Assembly (NCBI GenBank): GCA_029570205.1 | Contig: JAKQSI010000123.1 | Coordinates: 1 to 14,552, forward strand | Reading direction: 5' to 3' | Length of the DNA stretch: 14,552 nucleotides | DNA from: Candidatus Omnitrophota bacterium | GTDB lineage: Bacteria > Hinthialibacterota > Hinthialibacteria > Hinthialibacterales > JAKPRU01 | Shown here: piece by piece, positions 364-12,399 of the stretch | Numbering within the stretch: position 1 is the first letter of the stretch | How the letters are laid out: each line of letters starts with the position of its first letter | Made by a program: the position numbers and the translations under genes | Notes under the pieces: model-generated | The model's input: only the letters and a program-made list of their open reading frames with translations | Database searches by the model: none | Told to the model about the DNA's origin: nothing

Positions 364-1626
364 ATGTCTATCAAGCGATTTCTGGTCATTGTCCTTTTTG
401 CCGTGGTAGGATTCTATTCGACCTGCGTGTTCGTGGATCGCGCGTTTCTGGTTAATTTACTCAAGCCGGAGGTGGATTTTGCATGTTATTACTCGGCGGC
501 TCTTGCGGCACGCTGGGGCGCTCCCATGCACAACAGCGGTCCGTACGCGCTGCTGAAGCCGAATGTTCTCCGAGACACCTGGAAATCCGAAGACGGCGTC
601 CATGCAAAACCGGAAAATGTGTATCTCTATCCCGCGCTTCTGGCGTATATCCTGGTCCCGCTGACTTTCCTGCCGTTCAAGACAGCAGAGGTCCTGTGGA
701 ATCTCTCTTGCCTTCTTGCTTATGGAATCGGGGTCTGGGTATTTATCCGATCCGTTCGTTTGACCGGATTTCAATCCGGAGCCTGGGAGATCGCCTGGCT
801 GTTTCTGTCCATGATCTGGCCGCCGTTTCTGATAGCGGTACAGCATGGCCAGGTGGTTCCGTGGATTTTTCTGTTTCTCTCCCTGACTCTTTGGGCTGTA
901 TTGACCCAGCGTGATTTTCTTGCCGCCGGTGCGCTTGGACTGGCGGCGGGGTTGAAACTCGGCCCTGTTGTTTATGTGGCTTGGCTGTTGGTTCTGCGCC
1001 GATTTCGAGCGGCAGGAATGGCCCTGATTGTTTTCTTGATCCTGCTGTGCGCAGGGCCGACTCATAATGTCCGGCTGTTTCGGTGGGTTCTGCCTCATGT
1101 CCGCCTGGGTTCCACACTGGAGTCAAACCAGTGCCTCAATGGGGTTTTATGCCGGGCCGTGAGTGAGAATCGGGAACGCTGGATCACTCCCGAAAGCCTG
1201 ACAGAGATTCGTGGCGCAATTCGTCTTGCCGCCGGTCTCGGCGCGATTGCTGCGTGTCTTGTGCTTTTCGTGACCTTTCGGTCGGGGAGCAAACCGGAAA
1301 CGATTGTGGCCTCATTCTCACTGGTTGCGTTGACTCTGGCGCTGTTTTCGCCCCTGTCTCGTGTGACCGAATACACCTATGCCTTGTTCGCGATGGGTTA
1401 TACAGGCAAGAGATGCCTGGAGTCCGGCAGGTTGGGGAGGATTGCGCTTGGCATGGCAGGGGGGGTGGTGTTCGGGATGGCAGCGCTGAATTTGGCGGGC
1501 ATTCTGCACCGTTTCCTGGAGGCGCCGTGGACGGGATGGATATCGGTCAATGCCACCTTCCTCTGGGGAATGATTCTATGGATTGTCCTGGCAGCGGATT
1601 CTCTTAAGCCGCACCATGCATCTTGA
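364..1626 (+). CDS. GT87-family (DUF2029-type) polytopic membrane glycosyltransferase
   Basis: A 420-residue hydrophobic protein with roughly nine or more membrane segments. The first helix (about 5-20) is followed by an outer loop with a conserved-looking Asp38 in VDFACYYSAALAA, then the family-typical LYPALLAYILVPLTFLP stretch (about 88-104). Positively charged turns (QRD, RRFRAAG) separate later helices. These features fit the GT87 group of GT-C enzymes, which includes mycobacterial PimE-like mannosyltransferases. The group uses polyprenyl-phosphate sugars and transfers at the outer face of the cytoplasmic membrane, with an Asp in the first outer loop as the likely catalytic base. Sugar and acceptor are unknown. 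The ATG at 364 sits just before the first helix, but the bases upstream show no real Shine-Dalgarno sequence. The gene is monocistronic by layout and ends before a strong hairpin. The family call is fairly sure and the substrate unknown. Confidence 0.8.
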   Translation: MSIKRFLVIVLFAVVGFYSTCVFVDRAFLVNLLKPEVDFACYYSAALAARWGAPMHNSGPYALLKPNVLRDTWKSEDGVHAKPENVYLYPALLAYILVPLTFLPFKTAEVLWNLSCLLAYGIGVWVFIRSVRLTGFQSGAWEIAWLFLSMIWPPFLIAVQHGQVVPWIFLFLSLTLWAVLTQRDFLAAGALGLAAGLKLGPVVYVAWLLVLRRFRAAGMALIVFLILLCAGPTHNVRLFRWVLPHVRLGSTLESNQCLNGVLCRAVSENRERWITPESLTEIRGAIRLAAGLGAIAACLVLFVTFRSGSKPETIVASFSLVALTLALFSPLSRVTEYTYALFAMGYTGKRCLESGRLGRIALGMAGGVVFGMAALNLAGILHRFLEAPWTGWISVNATFLWGMILWIVLAADSLKPHHAS

Positions 1627-5917: not shown

Positions 5918-6925
5918 ATGAGACACTTTCCATCATCAATAAACAGGCGAATTGACTTCTCGATGAGCGCATTTCTCATTTCGCAATTGTTGTTTATTCT
6001 TTCGTGCGTCGGCAATCCTGCTTTGGCCGATTCGGTAATGGTTGCCAGACACGAGGTTCCTGTGTTGAGCGAACCAGAGTTACCAGTCACCGGTGTCGAT
6101 CTGGCCAACGTACTTAAGCGACACGTCCCTGATTTTCCGCAATTTGAACGCGATGTGCTTGGACCAGCGGATTTCGGTATCGGGTTTGACTATCGCATTC
6201 CACGGCCACGTTCGCTTACTCACGCGAATACGGCTGAGGGAGCGATGGCCGCCATGGCCTGGCCGATAGATCCGAGAGGCATATCTTTGGAAATCGGCGT
6301 CTTCCGAAGCCACCGGGATGCTTTGCTGGCCGCGAATCTCTTTCTGAATAGTATCCAAATGACATACGACCCGCCTGTTGTTTCGACGGACGATCCGGGA
6401 TACGTGACTTGGATCAATCCGAACTCGAAACTACCGGATGTGTTTGTGCGGGACAACGTGTTTGTCAATATCCAGGTTGCCGAACAGCTTGATCCCGCCA
6501 CCGTAATCCGTGCCATTGACAATGATCTCAAAAACACTGCGGAAGGAATAACGCGGGGAGAAAAAGTTGAGCCACCGATGATTCAAGATGTGGACTTTCC
6601 GTCCGAGATGAGCATATCCCGGGCGAGATTCGGTAAAGCATTGTTGAGTGCAAGCGATCCCAACGGACACAGGGTCTGGCACAGCGTTTGGATTGCGGGA
6701 AACGACCTGCCGAACTTGGGACCGAATACGCAACCATCCGAGCTGACGGAACCCCAAATAACTTGGAAGAATACGGGGATGGTGGAATTTGTGCCGCGCG
6801 GTGCACCGGGAACGATAACGGTGACACTGAAGGCAGTCGCAGTGAACGACCTGTGCGTGGTTTCCGACGTGTGGACGAAAACTGTGCGCATTACAACACA
6901 GGAGGAAATCCAGCCTAAAGAATAG
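5918..6925 (+). CDS. Putative secreted protein of unknown function
   Basis: I do not recognise this 335-residue protein. The ATG at 5918 has a good AAGGAG (5905-5910) seven bases upstream. The N-terminus is a Sec signal peptide: basic residues (Arg10, Arg11), a hydrophobic stretch (about 17-31) and a likely cleavage after NPALA at residue 37. ILSC at 27-30 is a weaker lipobox alternative. The mature part has a mid-section (about 115-215) with VFRSHRDALLAANLFLNS and VFVRDNVFVNIQV followed by a helix (DPATVIRAIDNDLKNT). This resembles the alternating pattern of periplasmic proteins with an 'N-V-F-V' strand, but no named family is claimed. The last 60 residues (GTITVTLKAVAVNDLCVVSD) look beta-rich and might be an Ig-like fold. 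No catalytic motif is visible. It has its own promoter, is flanked by non-coding DNA on both sides, and seems to stand alone. Confidence 0.8.
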   Translation: MRHFPSSINRRIDFSMSAFLISQLLFILSCVGNPALADSVMVARHEVPVLSEPELPVTGVDLANVLKRHVPDFPQFERDVLGPADFGIGFDYRIPRPRSLTHANTAEGAMAAMAWPIDPRGISLEIGVFRSHRDALLAANLFLNSIQMTYDPPVVSTDDPGYVTWINPNSKLPDVFVRDNVFVNIQVAEQLDPATVIRAIDNDLKNTAEGITRGEKVEPPMIQDVDFPSEMSISRARFGKALLSASDPNGHRVWHSVWIAGNDLPNLGPNTQPSELTEPQITWKNTGMVEFVPRGAPGTITVTLKAVAVNDLCVVSDVWTKTVRITTQEEIQPKE

Positions 6926-7410
6926 CAGGCGAGATTTCTTGCGACAGGCGGACGTTGCGCCCGCCATGGGAGAGACGAAGAGCGCATAATTGAGCGGGAT
7001 CTTCCCCCTCTGGATCAAGCCCGAAGTGTAGCCATGACGGGAGATGGAGCGGCTACCGGCGTTCCACCCGGATTCCATCTTTCGCCGGAATGACGGGGCA
7101 TGGCAGTCTGCGACGTGTGTGGAACAAAGACGCTCGTTCCTCCAAAGGCGAACGGTTTCAGAAAATCGCGTCCGCGGATGGTTCGACATGGCGTTTCCTC
7201 CGCAGTTCCATTGTGCCAATGAGACATAAGGCGCGAAGGGCACGGCCTGATTCGTTTGTATTTTGCGCCGGATTCCAAAAGGGGATATAGGGGAACGGGG
7301 AGAGGGGCGCTTTCTTTCCCTATAATTGCATAATAAGATGGCCTCCCGTGGAGAGTTTTCATCTTTGTCGGGACTCCGACGGGCATTTGAACTCACTGAA
7401 GAAGGTCAGC
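6926..7410. other. Non-coding interval with repeat remnant and possible promoter elements
   Basis: No supported gene. Short open frames on both strands here cross the repeat at 7070-7094. A GGCGG (6947-6951) / CCGCC (6961-6965) hairpin follows the secreted-protein gene and might help end transcription, but it has no T-run. TATAAT at 7321-7326 is a perfect -10 hexamer without a recognisable -35 element at the usual distance (GGGAGA there). It is the best candidate for starting the downstream glycosyltransferase operon. A GTCGG/CCGAC hairpin with loop GACT lies at 7367-7380, inside the probable leader. Confidence 0.5.
7070..7094. repeat. Dispersed palindromic repeat remnant (TCATTCCGGCG type), copy 2
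   Basis: ATTCC at 7072-7076 and GGAAT at 7087-7091 form the arms of a short palindrome, flanked by GG and GAC. On the minus strand it starts GTCATTCCGGCG and its chance translation reads RHSGERWNPG, the familiar signature of a repeat scattered through many genomes and often mis-annotated as peptide. It shares the 11-mer TCATTCCGGCG with the copy at 252-278 in the opposite orientation. Confidence 0.65.
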
Positions 7411-9276
7411 ATGTTTCCGAAGCGTTGTTTTGCCTCTCCGGCAGGGAGGATAGGACACTTTTTCTCTCCGTGCGATGGAACCGGAAAGGACCTCGCTTTG
7501 CCTCCTCTCGTTCTTCTGCTGTTTATCAGCCTTACCTGGGCGGCGTTGTTTGCCGTGAATCTTTCAAGTCCTTCGGACCTGATAGGCAAAGATCAGCAAC
7601 GCCCGGCAGCCTACGTGTTGGATGTCTTGCGCAACGGCAATTGGATCTGCCAGAGAGATGTGTCGGGAGCCGTTACCTCGAAACCGCCCCTGTATACCTG
7701 GCTTGCCGCGCTTGTTACCCTCCCGTTCGGTCGCATCAGTCGATTCACGTTGTACCTTCCCAGCGCCTTGTCCGTGTTGGGCGTTTCGTGGTTATTGACG
7801 GCATTGGGAAGCATGTACTATGGGCGGATGGCCGGATTCCTTGCCGCCGTGATGTATCTGCTTTCCTCCACAAGTCTCCGACAACTCTGTCTTGCCCGGA
7901 CAGACCCGCTGTTCTCATTAACCGTATTCGCGGCGGCGTGGTTCGCATACACCGCGTGGGTTGAGGGAAAAGGGTGGACAAGATTCTGGCTCATGTCGGC
8001 GGCAGCCGTTCTCACGAAAGGCCCGCTCGGAGTCGTGATTGCCCTTGGCGGACTGTGGGCAATTGTCTGGGAAAAGTATGATCGAAAGCCGTTTCCTCCG
8101 CTCCGTGGCTCTCATCTTACCGGCATACTTCTTTTCTTCTGTATAACGGGAGGATGGTTCCTTCTTGCTTATGCCGAGATGGGCCGGGCGCTTATCGACC
8201 GGTTGATCGGAACAGAATTGGTCGGTCATGCGCTCGTCGGCGGTAAACAACGACTTCCTCCCGGACACGCATTATTCACCCCCCCGCTCTATTTTCTTGC
8301 ACGTTTTGCGCCGTGGAGCATTGTGGCCTGCTTCGGATTCTGGCGGATCGTGAAACGGCCATCGGCGGATGACACCATCCGACGATTCGAGCGTTTCTGG
8401 TTTTGCTTCTTTTTTTTCGGCCTCCTGATCTTTTCGGTCTCTCCCCACCAGCGCCCCGACCACCTCTTTCCGCTGTTACCGGCAGCGGCGTTGATCGCCG
8501 GACCGGAAGTTTCAAAGGCGCTTCGCCATTATCCTGCGAAGCGTATTCTTTATGGAACCGCCATGCTGGTATTGGTTTCATTACTTTTTGCTTTCATTTA
8601 CCTGCACGTTGTTCGAGGGCACAGCGATCCTGTACAGCGAACCCGCTGGACACAGGAGTTGGCTCATGTAATCCGCCGAGAAGTCGGCAGCGAATTTCCG
8701 CTGATCCACATTGATTCCCCTTACGCTTTGCAATTCGAACTCAACACAATGAAGCCGGTTATTCCGCCGGAACAAGCCGCGCCGCTCCTGAAATCCGACT
8801 ATGCCGCCTTTCTGGTTGTGAGGGCCACCGAAACCGTCGAGGCTCTCCGCTGTATGGCCGGTCCGACACTTTATGAAGTCCTTCGCCGGCCCGATACCGA
8901 CCCCCCCTATCTGCGGATCATCAGTAATCACCCGCGACTGGAATACACACGTCGCATGGCGACTTTCGCCGGCCCGGTTCTTATTCGAATGGACCGAGCA
9001 GATTTGCAGGAATCGCCCAATAACAATCTGCTGTTTCGGGCCAAACAACCTTGCGGAAAAGTAATTCTATCCAATGTCGCCGACTCTCCTTGCCCCTTGC
9101 GCGTCCGTATCAGCAATACACAGCCGGAAATCGTAAAGAATGGGACCCTGGCTCCCGGAGAAACTTGGGAACTGGACTTCGGATCGGAGATATCCGCCGC
9201 ACGAGATATTGACTGTGGGCGGACTCTCCACAAAGATGATTCTTTACACAGTGAGCGATGCAGGATGCTGGAATGA
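7411..9276 (+). CDS. GT-C glycosyltransferase, ArnT/PMT (GT39/GT83)-like
   Basis: A 621-residue integral membrane protein with a first helix at about 30-50, an outer loop, then many helices to about residue 400 and a soluble C-terminal part of about 200 residues. The outer loop holds GKDQQRPAAYVLDVLRNGNW, and the motif KPPLY is at 91-95. This matches the family pattern of an acidic DE-type motif, then GDW, then KPPL, as in ArnT and protein mannosyltransferases, which use polyprenyl-phosphate sugars on the periplasmic side. The usual DE is DQ here (Asp61, Gln62). The acceptor cannot be told. The ATG at 7411 has GAAGAAGG five bases upstream. A GTG at 7348 would add 21 residues but has no ribosome binding site, so I prefer 7411. 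The stop codon overlaps the next gene by ATGA. The superfamily is sure and the substrate unknown. Confidence 0.85.
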   Translation: MFPKRCFASPAGRIGHFFSPCDGTGKDLALPPLVLLLFISLTWAALFAVNLSSPSDLIGKDQQRPAAYVLDVLRNGNWICQRDVSGAVTSKPPLYTWLAALVTLPFGRISRFTLYLPSALSVLGVSWLLTALGSMYYGRMAGFLAAVMYLLSSTSLRQLCLARTDPLFSLTVFAAAWFAYTAWVEGKGWTRFWLMSAAAVLTKGPLGVVIALGGLWAIVWEKYDRKPFPPLRGSHLTGILLFFCITGGWFLLAYAEMGRALIDRLIGTELVGHALVGGKQRLPPGHALFTPPLYFLARFAPWSIVACFGFWRIVKRPSADDTIRRFERFWFCFFFFGLLIFSVSPHQRPDHLFPLLPAAALIAGPEVSKALRHYPAKRILYGTAMLVLVSLLFAFIYLHVVRGHSDPVQRTRWTQELAHVIRREVGSEFPLIHIDSPYALQFELNTMKPVIPPEQAAPLLKSDYAAFLVVRATETVEALRCMAGPTLYEVLRRPDTDPPYLRIISNHPRLEYTRRMATFAGPVLIRMDRADLQESPNNNLLFRAKQPCGKVILSNVADSPCPLRVRISNTQPEIVKNGTLAPGETWELDFGSEISAARDIDCGRTLHKDDSLHSERCRMLE

Positions 9277-10004
9277 CTGAGTCTTCTGTCGATCTGTCGG
9301 TTGTGGTTCCGTGTTACAACGAAGAGGAGAATATCGGTCCGCTCGTAAGGGAATTAGTTGAGGTATTGACTCCGCTTGGTAAATCTTTTGAGATCCTTTT
9401 TGTAGATGATTGCAGCACGGACAGGACGGTGGCTCGTGTGTGGGAGATCCGGGCCGAGTTTCCCGCTGTTCGACTGGTGCGTCATACGAACAACTGGGGC
9501 CAGAGCGCGGCAATTTCCACGGGATTTCAGATGGCGCGAGGAGCCATTCTTGTAACCCTGGATGCGGATCTGCAAAACGATCCTCACGACATTCCGATTC
9601 TGTTGGAGTGTCTCTCGAATGCGGATGTTGTGTGCGGCATCCGCGCTCGGCGCAAGGACCCCTGGATCAGGCGGCTCTCCTCCAGGATTGGGAATGCCTT
9701 CCGAAATCTCATCACAGGGGACAGCATTGTGGATGCCGGATGCTCGCTCCGCGTTCTGAAACGCGAGGTCGTGCATGAACTGCCGCGATTCAATGGATTG
9801 CATCGTTTCCTGCCCACCCTGGCCCGATTCCAGGGCTTTCGTGTTGTACAGGTGCCTGTGAACCATCGACCGCGCCAATTCGGCAAATCCAAGTACGGAA
9901 TTGGGAATCGGTTATGGCGGGGGATCCTGGACTGTTTGGCCGTTCGTTGGTTTAAATATAGATTATTTTCTTCTGGACGGACACAGAAAAACCATGAGGA
10001 ATAA
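9273..10004 (+). CDS. Family 2 glycosyltransferase, polyprenyl-phosphate sugar synthase type (DPM1/ArnC-like)
   Basis: A 243-residue GT-A fold enzyme. PCYNEEEN at 13-20 and VDDCSTD at 44-50 form the nucleotide-sugar pocket. NWGQSAAISTGFQMARG (about 74-90) and the metal-binding LDADLQNDP (Asp97 and Asp99) are classic for the dolichol/undecaprenyl-phosphate sugar synthase branch, as is the late GKSKYG followed by an amphipathic NRLWRGILDCLAVRWF. Unlike ArnC or GtrB it lacks the C-terminal transmembrane pair, so it probably sits on the inner face of the membrane peripherally. The likely reaction is transfer of a sugar from a nucleotide donor to polyprenyl phosphate. The ATG at 9273 overlaps the previous stop by ATGA and has AGGA seven bases upstream. 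An ATG at 9258 has a poorer site. Coupling to its neighbours supports a donor-making role for the GT-C enzyme. Confidence 0.88.
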   Translation: MTESSVDLSVVVPCYNEEENIGPLVRELVEVLTPLGKSFEILFVDDCSTDRTVARVWEIRAEFPAVRLVRHTNNWGQSAAISTGFQMARGAILVTLDADLQNDPHDIPILLECLSNADVVCGIRARRKDPWIRRLSSRIGNAFRNLITGDSIVDAGCSLRVLKREVVHELPRFNGLHRFLPTLARFQGFRVVQVPVNHRPRQFGKSKYGIGNRLWRGILDCLAVRWFKYRLFSSGRTQKNHEE

Positions 10005-10692
10005 CCCGCAGATATCATCCGTCCCCCCGCCTGTTGTTCGATTGCTCATCGCCGTCGGGATTTTGCTTGGCCTCATTCTCCTGATTCGCCATACCTCGCT
10101 GGCCGAGTTCCTGCAGGTATCGCAGATCCCCAAGTGGGGAGAGGACCTCAAGGCATTCGGTGCGTGGACCCAATCGGTATTCTTGTTGATTGGGACCCTG
10201 ATCCTGATCGTCGGAGTTCCCCGACGGATATTAGCAGGGATTGCCGGCGCCTTGTTCGGCTCTTTTCGTGGAATCCTCTGGGTTCAGACGATCACACTCC
10301 TTTCCGGATTGATCAGCTTCGGATTTGCCCGCTGGGTTGTGGGCGATTGGGTGCGCCGGAAATTCAACCGCTACCCCAACCTGGACAGACAATTTCGTGA
10401 ACACGGATTTCTCGTGGTTCTGCTCATTCGCTTGTTTCCCGTCGGACATAATCAATTGACCAATCTCCTTTGTGGAGCAAGCCCGGTAACCGTGCATAGT
10501 TTCTTTTGGGGCACGCTTCTGGGGAGCTTGCCCGATGCCGCAGTCTGCGTCTTTCTTGGAGGCAGCCTCGTCGGCCATACCTGGTTCCGTTTGGCTTGTG
10601 CCCTGGGAGTGCTGATCGTGACAATGACCCTGTTTTGCATCGGCTTCCGATCATCCGATGTGATTACCGACATGACAAAGAAGTTCGACTGA
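9994..10692 (+). CDS. VTT-domain (TVP38/TMEM64, DedA-superfamily) membrane protein
   Basis: A 232-residue membrane protein with helices at about 15-30, 55-75, 80-115, 140-160 and later. The central part shows the VTT (SNARE-associated, PF09335-type) pattern: AGALFGSFRG, then a long helix ending in ARWVVGDWVRRKF, then HGFLVVLLIRLFPVGHNQLTNLLCGASPV, a re-entrant segment with the conserved Arg-x-x-Pro, and FFWGTLLGSLPDAAVCVFLGGSL. Relatives include DedA proteins involved in undecaprenyl-phosphate recycling and eukaryotic lipid scramblases. The precise substrate of the TVP38 branch is not known. The preferred start is ATG at 9994, which overlaps the glycosyltransferase gene by 11 bases. An in-frame ATG at 9901 would add 31 residues that overlap the upstream enzyme and do not look like this family. 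Placement suggests a role in moving a lipid carrier or lipid-linked sugar (inference). Confidence 0.82.
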   Translation: MRNNPQISSVPPPVVRLLIAVGILLGLILLIRHTSLAEFLQVSQIPKWGEDLKAFGAWTQSVFLLIGTLILIVGVPRRILAGIAGALFGSFRGILWVQTITLLSGLISFGFARWVVGDWVRRKFNRYPNLDRQFREHGFLVVLLIRLFPVGHNQLTNLLCGASPVTVHSFFWGTLLGSLPDAAVCVFLGGSLVGHTWFRLACALGVLIVTMTLFCIGFRSSDVITDMTKKFD

Positions 10693-10778: not shown

Positions 10779-11759
10779 CTACCGTTTCAACAAAAGATCC
10801 CGGATGATTCCATTCGCGTTTTCCGGTGTGACGCCCAATTCACCGCAGTACTCTTCCGGATGAAACGGCAGTCGCGCTTCGCGAAGTCCATGGTGGTCGG
10901 TCCCAATGGTGAACTGTACTCCCGCCTCCGCCAGCGGACGGATGTCCGCAATGAATGCCTCACGAACCACGGGATTCTTCCAGCAGCCCTCATAAGCCCG
11001 GTTGATCTCCACATAAATCGATGTCCCCCGCAGGATCTCCGCCAGTTGTGCCTGTTCTCCCGGCTGGAAAAATCGGTACTCCTGCACGGTTATCGTGGAG
11101 ATATCCCGCCCCTGTTTCTGGGCGGTGTTCACGATATTTTCAATTCGCATCGAGAAAGGATGGCACAGAATCATCGGGACCGGAAATCTCTTCTGAAGCG
11201 CCTTAAGTTGCTTCGCGCGCTTAATCAGGAGTTGTCCATCGGGCGCCTCTCCGCCGTTGTTCGGGGAAATATGCCAGCCGAGAACATCCGCCATGCGCAT
11301 CGGTTCGGTTTCCAGGTCCCCGTCCAGCTCCCGTGAGTCGATCTCCCAGCCTTTGAATATGAGCAGATCGCTTTTCCTTTTCTTTGCCACCCGATCGAAA
11401 TCCGCCATCAGCGCCTTGTGCCCCGCCGAACCGACCGGATACCATAACGGAAAGCCATTTTCCCCGGCCCAAGCCTCATACTCCGCTTGTGTCTTTCGGT
11501 AAAGTTCGATGTGATCCAGAAGCAGCAAGGCTTTCCGACCGTCCGCCGCGGCCAACTCCACCCATTCATCAAGAGGAACCGGGCGTTCCATCCCCGCATG
11601 AAGGTGCATATCCATTTCACGCAGTTGGAAAAGCGCAGATTCTGATGTTGTCCTGTTATCCGCTGTCTGTGTCTGAGCGCACCCGATGACACAGAGAATC
11701 CCGAAAGCGACGAAGAATACCGCCATGCGGGTGAGTGACAAAGCATTTCGTGATGACAT
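10779..11759 (-). CDS. PHP-domain metal-dependent hydrolase, predicted lipoprotein
   Basis: A 326-residue protein with a lipoprotein signal: a basic N-terminus, a hydrophobic core at 12-26 and the lipobox VIGC with Cys27 as lipid anchor. The mature part has PHP (polymerase and histidinol phosphatase) motifs in order: DMHLHAG (Asp50, His52, His54), LDHIE (82-83), FKGWEID (Glu139), ILCHPFS (His200) and TIGTDHHG (Asp288, His289). These would bind a di- or trinuclear metal centre, often Mn, Fe or Zn, and cleave phosphoesters. The substrate is unknown. Because of the lipid anchor it should act outside the cytoplasm, which is unusual for the better-known members. The start is ATG at 11759, with a perfect AGGAGGT seven bases upstream. 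An in-frame upstream extension to 11864 overlaps mntP and destroys the signal peptide logic. It lies 79 bases after mntP on the same strand, probably in one operon. Confidence 0.8.
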   Translation of the reverse strand: MSSRNALSLTRMAVFFVAFGILCVIGCAQTQTADNRTTSESALFQLREMDMHLHAGMERPVPLDEWVELAAADGRKALLLLDHIELYRKTQAEYEAWAGENGFPLWYPVGSAGHKALMADFDRVAKKRKSDLLIFKGWEIDSRELDGDLETEPMRMADVLGWHISPNNGGEAPDGQLLIKRAKQLKALQKRFPVPMILCHPFSMRIENIVNTAQKQGRDISTITVQEYRFFQPGEQAQLAEILRGTSIYVEINRAYEGCWKNPVVREAFIADIRPLAEAGVQFTIGTDHHGLREARLPFHPEEYCGELGVTPENANGIIRDLLLKR

Positions 11760-11766
11760 GTTTTCT

Positions 11767-11773
11767 ACCTCCT
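11767..11773 (-). promoter_or_regulatory. Perfect Shine-Dalgarno (AGGAGGT) fixing the lipoprotein start
   Basis: On the minus strand AGGAGGT lies seven bases before the ATG at 11759. It is the strongest ribosome binding site in the window and rules out the longer open frame that begins inside mntP. Confidence 0.8.
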
Positions 11774-11838
11774 GTGGGCGTGACCCGGCCTGCTCCGGTT
11801 CGATGCATCTGCCTTCATACAAGCCATAACGGACGATA

Positions 11839-12399
11839 TTAGAACAAGACATGGGAAACCACAATCCGAATGCCGATCAGAAGCAGAATTACCCCGCCCG
11901 CAATCTCCATGCGATGTCCGAATCGGGCGCCGATCCGGTCTCCCAGCAGGAGTCCCAGCATGGAAAGCGCACCGGTCACTACACCGACAATCACACCGGC
12001 GTACCAAATCGAAATGTGCACCATCGCCAGGCTGAGACCGACCGCAAGCGCATCGATACTCACCGCCACGGAAAGCATGACCAGCGTGATCCCCCGGGTC
12101 GGATCGGTCGCGTATGACTCGCTTTCCTCGCGCAATCCGGCACGGATCATGCGCACGCCTACAAAACCCAGCAGGGCAAATGCGACCCAATGGTCGAATA
12201 CCGCAATAAACCGCTCGATGGTCGTGCCCGCAAACCAGCCGATCACCGGCATGAGAAACTGGAACAAACCGAAATGAAACGCGAGACGAAACCGCGCGCG
12301 AACGCCCGCGCTCAGCCCCGCCGCGGCGATCCCCAGACAGACCGCCATAGCATCCATGGCCAGCCCGACTGACATAATCAGGATTTCAATAAGAGTCAC
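11839..12399 (-). CDS. mntP: Manganese efflux pump MntP
   Basis: A 186-residue inner-membrane protein with six predicted helices arranged as two related halves. Each half starts with the family motif: AMDAMAV (Asp16) and SIDALAVGLSLA (Asp116). These match the SMDAFA and SLDAMAVG motifs of Escherichia coli MntP, whose aspartates are needed for Mn(II) export. A charged cytoplasmic loop (REESESYATDPTRG, about 90-103) separates the halves, and GWFAGTTIERF and HWVAFALLGFVGVRMI are also typical. The start is GTG at 12399, with GAGGAAG about eight bases upstream. It is the first gene of a probable two-gene minus-strand unit with the PHP lipoprotein and is divergent from the dihydrolipoyl dehydrogenase. 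I see no yybP-ykoY manganese riboswitch in the 167-base leader region. The call is confident. Confidence 0.92.
   Translation of the reverse strand: MTLIEILIMSVGLAMDAMAVCLGIAAAGLSAGVRARFRLAFHFGLFQFLMPVIGWFAGTTIERFIAVFDHWVAFALLGFVGVRMIRAGLREESESYATDPTRGITLVMLSVAVSIDALAVGLSLAMVHISIWYAGVIVGVVTGALSMLGLLLGDRIGARFGHRMEIAGGVILLLIGIRIVVSHVLF

Follow-up and report, generated by a model that had tools for sequence, protein, structure and literature searches.

A conserved gene cassette joining a helix-less GT2 glycosyltransferase, a VTT-superfamily membrane protein and a GT-C glycosyltransferase in a Candidatus Omnitrophota genome

The three genes of the cassette

A 14,552-nucleotide stretch of DNA from a Candidatus Omnitrophota bacterium (assembly GCA_029570205.1, contig JAKQSI010000123.1; hereafter the window) carries three overlapping genes on the forward strand, encoding in order a GT-C glycosyltransferase, a GT2 polyprenyl-phosphate glycosyltransferase without transmembrane helices and a membrane protein of the VTT/DedA superfamily. 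An initial annotation had described overlaps of 4 and 11 bases between them, and the open reading frames (ORFs) and coordinates were confirmed: the GT-C gene (7411..9276) shares 4 base pairs (ATGA) with the GT2 gene (9273..10004), which in turn shares 11 base pairs with the VTT gene (9994..10692). The GT-C gene could also start from an in-frame GTG at 7348. Another species of the genus (L081) shares the three genes and their order, at 90-98% identity.

The GT-C protein (621 aa) is PMT_2/ArnT-like. It matches PF13231 (PMT_2) at 4e-11, over the curated cut-off, and the NCBIfam ArnT model weakly (3.8e-5, 22.5 bits relative to an equivalog cut-off of 567), so that it does not qualify as an ArnT equivalog. 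Among the GT-C proteins tested, its best cross-match (28.6% over 311 aa, 2e-15) was with a Nitrospirota protein, the GT-C of a GT2-LAB_N-GT-C cassette, and a sequence search of the PDB gave nothing useful for it.

The GT2 protein (243 aa) matches PF00535 (Glycos_transf_2) at 4e-33, over the cut-off, and contains a DxD motif, D97-A-D99 within TLDADLQNDP (9561..9569, forward strand), in which D97, D99 and the nearby Q101 are invariant in 31 relatives. The absence of membrane helices, also claimed at the outset, was borne out: the maximum Kyte-Doolittle hydropathy is 1.27, and no 19-residue segment lies above 1.6. By sequence, the closest solved structure in the PDB is ArnC (9hwj, 1.6e-40). Consistent with this, the AlphaFold model of the GT2 (pLDDT 88) matches ArnC (9asc) with a TM-score of 0.78 over the query, in addition to matching the catalytic domains of GtrB and DPMS. 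The Pfam domain, the invariant DxD and the ArnC TM-score place the protein among polyprenyl-phosphate GT2 enzymes of the ArnC/GtrB/DPMS type. It is not an ArnC equivalog, scoring 145.7 bits relative to the NCBIfam cut-off of 529 and having no C-terminal helices. The third protein (232 aa) matches PF09335 (VTT) at 2e-19, and its 70.5 bits relative to a cut-off of 33.9 make it a member of the VTT/DedA superfamily as defined by Pfam.

Conservation of the GT2-VTT pair and its exchange with LAB_N

The GT2-VTT pair was seen in at least four lineages, usually with a GT-C gene: Sumerlaeota, Alphaproteobacteria, a gammaproteobacterial metagenome-assembled genome (MAG) and plasmids of Alteromonadaceae. 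The initial annotation had proposed a search for conserved neighbourhoods, and had held that a gene order not kept in relatives would speak against the cassette. The order of GT2 then VTT was constant in every linked case seen, but the position of the GT-C gene was not: it precedes the GT2 in the window, follows the VTT in Proteobacteria and lies on both sides in Sumerlaeota. In a Sumerlaea-like genome (L080) the GT2 is 53% identical to that of the window and is directly followed by a VTT protein about 27-30% identical. The pair is surrounded by three GT-C genes and by genes for a DegT aminotransferase and a Gfo/Idh dehydrogenase; a related record (L082) is from a Candidatus Sumerlaeaceae MAG. 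Among pairs from Rhodospirillales, L085 and L093 are GT2-VTT-GT-C operons and L124 and L112 have no adjoining GT-C gene, and in the gammaproteobacterial MAG (L087) all three genes are present.

The pairing was followed most extensively in the alphaproteobacterial order of Insolitispirillum, where 155 of 248 sampled genomes carry a cassette-type VTT protein, counted by hand at E < 1e-50, with other VTT proteins clearly apart at about 1e-20. At the 30 best-scoring VTT loci of this order, chosen by score with a profile built from cassette VTT proteins and thus not a random sample, a helix-less GT2 lies directly 5' in 30/30 and a GT-C gene within 1.5 kb in 21/30. By contrast, any GT2 within 1.5 kb was found at 5/59 non-cassette VTT loci, and four of those five are weak paralogues. 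GT2-VTT-GT39 cassettes also occur on annotated plasmids of Glaciecola, Alteromonas and Salinimonas. On the plasmids of Alteromonas macleodii (L294) and Salinimonas iocasae (L295), the GT39 gene is followed by genes for a phosphoethanolamine-lipid A transferase and then diacylglycerol kinase (DgkA), with a two-component system upstream, so that these operons resemble an island for lipid A modification carried on a plasmid. Because the operon adds the phosphoethanolamine-lipid A transferase and DgkA, the Alteromonas and Salinimonas cassettes probably serve envelope modification, with lipid A as the likely target.

The position directly after the helix-less GT2 is not always held by a VTT gene. 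In a survey of 80 GT2 loci from GTDB genomes, 33 GT2 proteins were helix-less and 47 had C-terminal helices. A gene for VTT (6 loci) or for the small membrane protein LAB_N (14 loci) lies directly 3' of 20/33 helix-less GT2 genes, relative to 0/47 of the helix-bearing ones; the table was computed as 19/13 against 1/47 (Fisher test, 5e-9), and L112, whose long ORF reflects an upstream extension, was afterwards moved to the helix-less group. The identity of LAB_N (PF07578) was confirmed by Pfam on examples. In the 248 genomes of the order of Insolitispirillum, LAB_N over the cut-off was found in 0/155 genomes with a cassette VTT and in 25/93 without (Fisher test, 2e-12, with phylogeny ignored). 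Most of the LAB_N genes of that order stand directly after the same helix-less GT2, many being followed by a GT-C gene, and the GT2 tree requires at least four switches between VTT and LAB_N. GT2-LAB_N-GT39 cassettes lie on annotated plasmids of Thalassospira marina, Azospirillum B510 and Ilyobacter, and a two-component system adjoins some LAB_N cassettes as well. On a plasmid of Cetobacterium somerae (L299), genes for GDP-mannose dehydratase and UDP-glucose/GDP-mannose dehydrogenase are inserted between LAB_N and GT39, a hint that this cassette may handle uronic-acid-type sugars.

Thus, VTT occupies the slot held by LAB_N in sister cassettes, and a polyprenyl-phosphate GT2, a membrane partner and a GT-C enzyme in one conserved unit is the gene make-up of the three-component Arn, Rgt and Gtr systems. 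The gene overlaps, the conserved neighbourhoods and the exchange with LAB_N support the co-expressed unit that the initial annotation had proposed and a VTT protein as its dedicated partner, and the restriction of VTT and LAB_N to the helix-less group agrees with its suggestion that such a GT2 needs a membrane partner. LAB_N presumably belongs to a clan of PQ-loop proteins that includes MPDU1. In mammals, MPDU1 is needed for all known reactions that use dolichol-phosphate monosaccharides (PMC3281891).

Signature residues of the VTT protein and its genomic context

Cassette VTT proteins from the window, Sumerlaeota and Alphaproteobacteria form one clade (SH-aLRT 99), with one further VTT protein (L005) inside it; the placement of the L087 protein in this tree was disregarded, and that protein carries GLPR. 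The clade is marked by a GxPR motif, in the window G74-V-P-R77 (10213..10224, forward strand), at the presumed tip of the first re-entrant helix. Arg77 is present in 39/39 cassette VTT proteins relative to 3/50 other entries, and these three are themselves clade members, two of them being a single G036 gene entered twice and the third having a contig end just upstream, so that among unrelated VTT proteins the count is 0/47. The G036 gene adjoins a complex I/antiporter-like gene, and in that genome the GT2-VTT pair is present but unlinked. At the presumed tip of the second re-entrant helix, Arg146 (10429..10431, forward strand, in RLFPVGHN) is invariant in 32 cassette VTT proteins and retained in 48/50 other VTT proteins, and R146, P149 and N157 are kept in the cassette proteins as in others. 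The second tip reads RxxPxGSN in cassette VTT proteins and mostly RxxPxxPF in the other VTT proteins compared; R77 is private to the clade.

These residues can be set against those of the DedA subfamilies. In undecaprenyl phosphate (UndP) flippases of COG0586, the first re-entrant tip carries conserved acidic residues and the second a pair of Arg; in the COG0398 (TVP38-type) subfamily the acidic residues are missing, together with at least one of the two Arg (PMC10127716). With columns mapped by spacing, columns 70-93 of the cassette VTT proteins appear to be without a conserved acidic residue, and the second COG0586 Arg appears to be missing, the position six after R146 being H, S or N. The cassette protein is a VTT family member with its own signature and, on these residues, does not appear to be a typical UndP flippase of COG0586. 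We assign it no relative by fold: its AlphaFold model (pLDDT 81) gave nothing significant in a Foldseek search of the PDB, a VIA-align comparison gave scattered matches of which the best (an ECF S-component, Z 6.5) was not above helical-bundle expectation, and a sequence search of the PDB gave nothing useful.

The VTT protein is the sole PF09335 protein found in the window genome, a count that may be incomplete since the genome is about 93% complete, and no match to GtrA (PF04138), LAB_N (PF07578) or DUF368/PopT (PF04018) was found there. The initial annotation had noted no GtrA-like flippase nearby, and this now extends to the whole genome. The single VTT of the window genome may be its essential UndP flippase, a reading to be taken with the completeness of the genome and with the second VTT protein of a congener (G002). 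In several genomes, cassette VTT proteins coexist with other VTT proteins, which argues against a purely general role for the former, raised at the outset as grounds for doubt. Another genome of the genus (G001) has neither a cassette VTT nor a close helix-less GT2, and this joint absence was counted in favour of the GT2-VTT partnership. Members of a sister family have a lone helix-less GT2 with no partner in the 1.5 kb flanks. In two genera of the window's order (L276, L278), the helix-less GT2 adjoins a methylthioadenosine phosphorylase-like gene, and the 1.5 kb flanks contain neither VTT nor LAB_N.

The genes that flank the cassette in the window include none specific to a sugar. A 335-aa protein (5918-6925, forward strand), encoded between the cassette and a CarD-like gene, matches no Pfam or NCBIfam model and is kept in the congener L081. 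Downstream, a 361-aa protein (10779-11864, reverse strand) resembles a lipoprotein of the PHP/amidohydrolase type, with no family above the cut-off in Pfam or NCBIfam. A second GT-C gene, of GT87 (364-1626, forward strand; PF09594, 5e-20), lies 5.8 kb upstream of the cassette and outside it. The genome as a whole has about 31 PMT_2 and 28 GT2 matches.

Candidate roles in lipid-linked sugar transfer

The closest parallel among known systems is Arn (ArnC, ArnE/F and ArnT), which modifies lipid A with 4-amino-4-deoxy-L-arabinose (Ara4N): a GT2 loads polyprenyl phosphate, a membrane protein moves it and a PMT-like GT-C enzyme transfers the sugar outside. The window GT2 is closest to ArnC among solved structures, but ArnC carries membrane helices at its C-terminus and ArnE/F belong to the SMR proteins (PMC9574504), whereas the window GT2 is helix-less and its partner is a VTT protein. 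Among the cassette ORFs, to which this check was confined and which were read without a family search for SMR, no EmrE-like SMR (ArnE/F) gene was seen. The GT2-LAB_N-GT39 cassettes of Thalassospira, Azospirillum, Ilyobacter and Nitrospira share the helix-less GT2 subfamily, the slot, the GT-C family and sometimes two-component regulators with the VTT cassettes, and differ in having a small LAB_N protein as the partner; no functional paper on them was found in the searched literature. We know of no VTT partner in the Rgt system (RgtE with the GT-C enzymes RgtD/RgtF), which places galacturonic acid (GalA) on lipid A. That system likewise combines a GT2 bactoprenyl-phosphate-GalA synthase, to which the window GT2 is likened by description, with GalA transferases (PMC7663294). 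In the Gtr/Gtc systems (GtrA-GtrB-GtrII, GtcA), the same logic of a GT2, a small flippase and a GT-C enzyme is described (PMC7389260, PMC8035078), the flippase being GtrA, the family without a match in the window genome.

We consider it somewhat probable that the cassette specifies a glycosylation system with three components, of the Arn/Rgt/Gtr kind, in which a dedicated VTT partner most likely translocates a polyprenyl-phosphate-sugar outward. Judging by its family and fold, the helix-less GT2 would load a sugar from a nucleotide donor onto polyprenyl phosphate in the inner leaflet. The VTT protein of the GxPR clade, in the slot otherwise held by LAB_N, would be the membrane partner of the GT2 and most likely move the polyprenyl-phosphate-sugar to the outer leaflet, and the PMT/ArnT-like GT-C enzyme would, by its family, pass the sugar to an acceptor outside. 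In Alteromonadaceae this acceptor would, given the operon, probably be lipid A. Sugar-nucleotide genes near other cassettes were counted in favour of the proposal, namely DegT and Gfo/Idh in Sumerlaeota and the UDP-glucose/GDP-mannose dehydrogenase of a LAB_N cassette. The interpretation made at the outset is thus partly supported, with movement of lipid by the VTT protein being the part that we infer. A more specific proposal, that the GxPR clade is made up of forward flippases dedicated to polyprenyl-phosphate monosaccharides, interchangeable in function with LAB_N, is tentative, and we would put it a little short of an even chance on the present sequence comparisons.

Several observations weigh against outward translocation by a dedicated partner. 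LAB_N is itself without proven function, so that the exchange shows only that both proteins do the same job, and sequence does not reveal which way transport would run. COG0398-type DedA proteins are viewed as phospholipid scramblase-like (PMC10127716). Between 11 and 13 of the 33 helix-less GT2 genes have neither partner nearby, and linkage is therefore not obligatory; the genome counts ignore phylogeny; and among the sampled genomes of the window's class only a single genus yielded the cassette. In addition, the GxPR VTT gene of G036 is an orphan, with the helix-less GT2 on another contig (L221, L275).

Other roles for the VTT protein were weighed against the same evidence. It could be a dedicated recycler, returning to the inner leaflet the polyprenyl phosphate freed by the GT-C enzyme, with the loaded lipid crossing by other means. 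On balance we think recycling unlikely, but it is a serious rival because the DedA-superfamily proteins DbcA and PA4029, which have been linked to carrier recycling and to Ara4N-lipid A modification or polymyxin resistance (PMC12893004, PMC6849406), would promote Ara4N modification by this route. A GT2/GT-C pathway does free polyprenyl monophosphate outside, which requires return, and in the window genome neither DUF368 nor another VTT protein was found. However, the cassette VTT proteins lack the first-tip acidic residues and the second Arg of the second tip that are typical of COG0586 UndP flippases (PMC10127716), and other VTT proteins exist in the same genomes. Exchange with LAB_N, from the clan of MPDU1 (PMC3281891), better suits handling of the loaded lipid, and because that clan includes MPDU1 we regard such handling as somewhat likelier than recycling of the bare carrier.

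The restriction of both partners to helix-less GT2 genes (0/47 after helix-bearing ones), with a small membrane protein such as LAB_N in the same slot, would suit an anchor or docking platform that keeps the GT2 on the membrane and passes its product to the GT-C enzyme without moving lipid. Yet an anchor alone would have no need of the conserved re-entrant tip residues R77, R146, P149 and N157, and the 11-13 helix-less GT2 proteins without a nearby partner do not fit it; we hold this role to be rather improbable. Least probable by far is that the VTT protein is a common phospholipid scramblase, or a DedA protein with housekeeping duties, that lies beside glycosyltransferases by chance, even though COG0398-type members have been proposed as phospholipid scramblases (PMC10127716) and the window genome is rich in GT2 and PMT_2 genes. 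The 30/30 loci that adjoin the same GT2 subfamily, relative to 5/59 for other VTT proteins, the retention of the pair across phyla and on plasmids, and the mutual exclusion with LAB_N all speak against it. Chance co-location was rejected on this conservation, and general housekeeping as the sole role is disfavoured by the coexistence of other VTT proteins with the cassette ones.

The cassette is real and conserved, and it appears to be an undescribed variant among the three-component systems for lipid-linked sugar transfer. No description of a GT2-VTT-GT-C cassette was found in the searched literature, outside which most subscription journals fall, and to that extent the earlier statement that a VTT protein as dedicated partner of an ArnT/PMT-like enzyme is not known as a described system still stands. 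The idea is not wholly without precedent, because the DedA-superfamily proteins DbcA, which supports Ara4N-lipid A modification, and PA4029, which supports polymyxin resistance, are already tied to Arn-type modification as unlinked helpers. The DedA/VTT flippases (UptA, PA4029 and DbcA of COG0586; TMEM41B, VMP1 and TVP38, COG0398-like) share the PF09335 domain with the cassette protein, but their roles are general carrier recycling or phospholipid scrambling, with no report of them as partners in GT2/GT-C operons, and their tips differ from the private GxPR tip of the cassette clade.

In many systems it is an open question what takes polyprenyl- and dolichyl-phosphate monosaccharides across membranes, and the substrates of bacterial TVP38-type DedA proteins are not known. 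The one-for-one swap of VTT with LAB_N beside the same GT2 offers a clean genetic test, made practical by the operon's presence on plasmids of culturable marine bacteria beside lipid A modification genes. If the proposed role is correct, it would give the VTT superfamily a new class of substrate, MPDU1-like proteins may handle the same step in eukaryotes, and the known ways in which Gram-negative bacteria decorate their surface would be widened.

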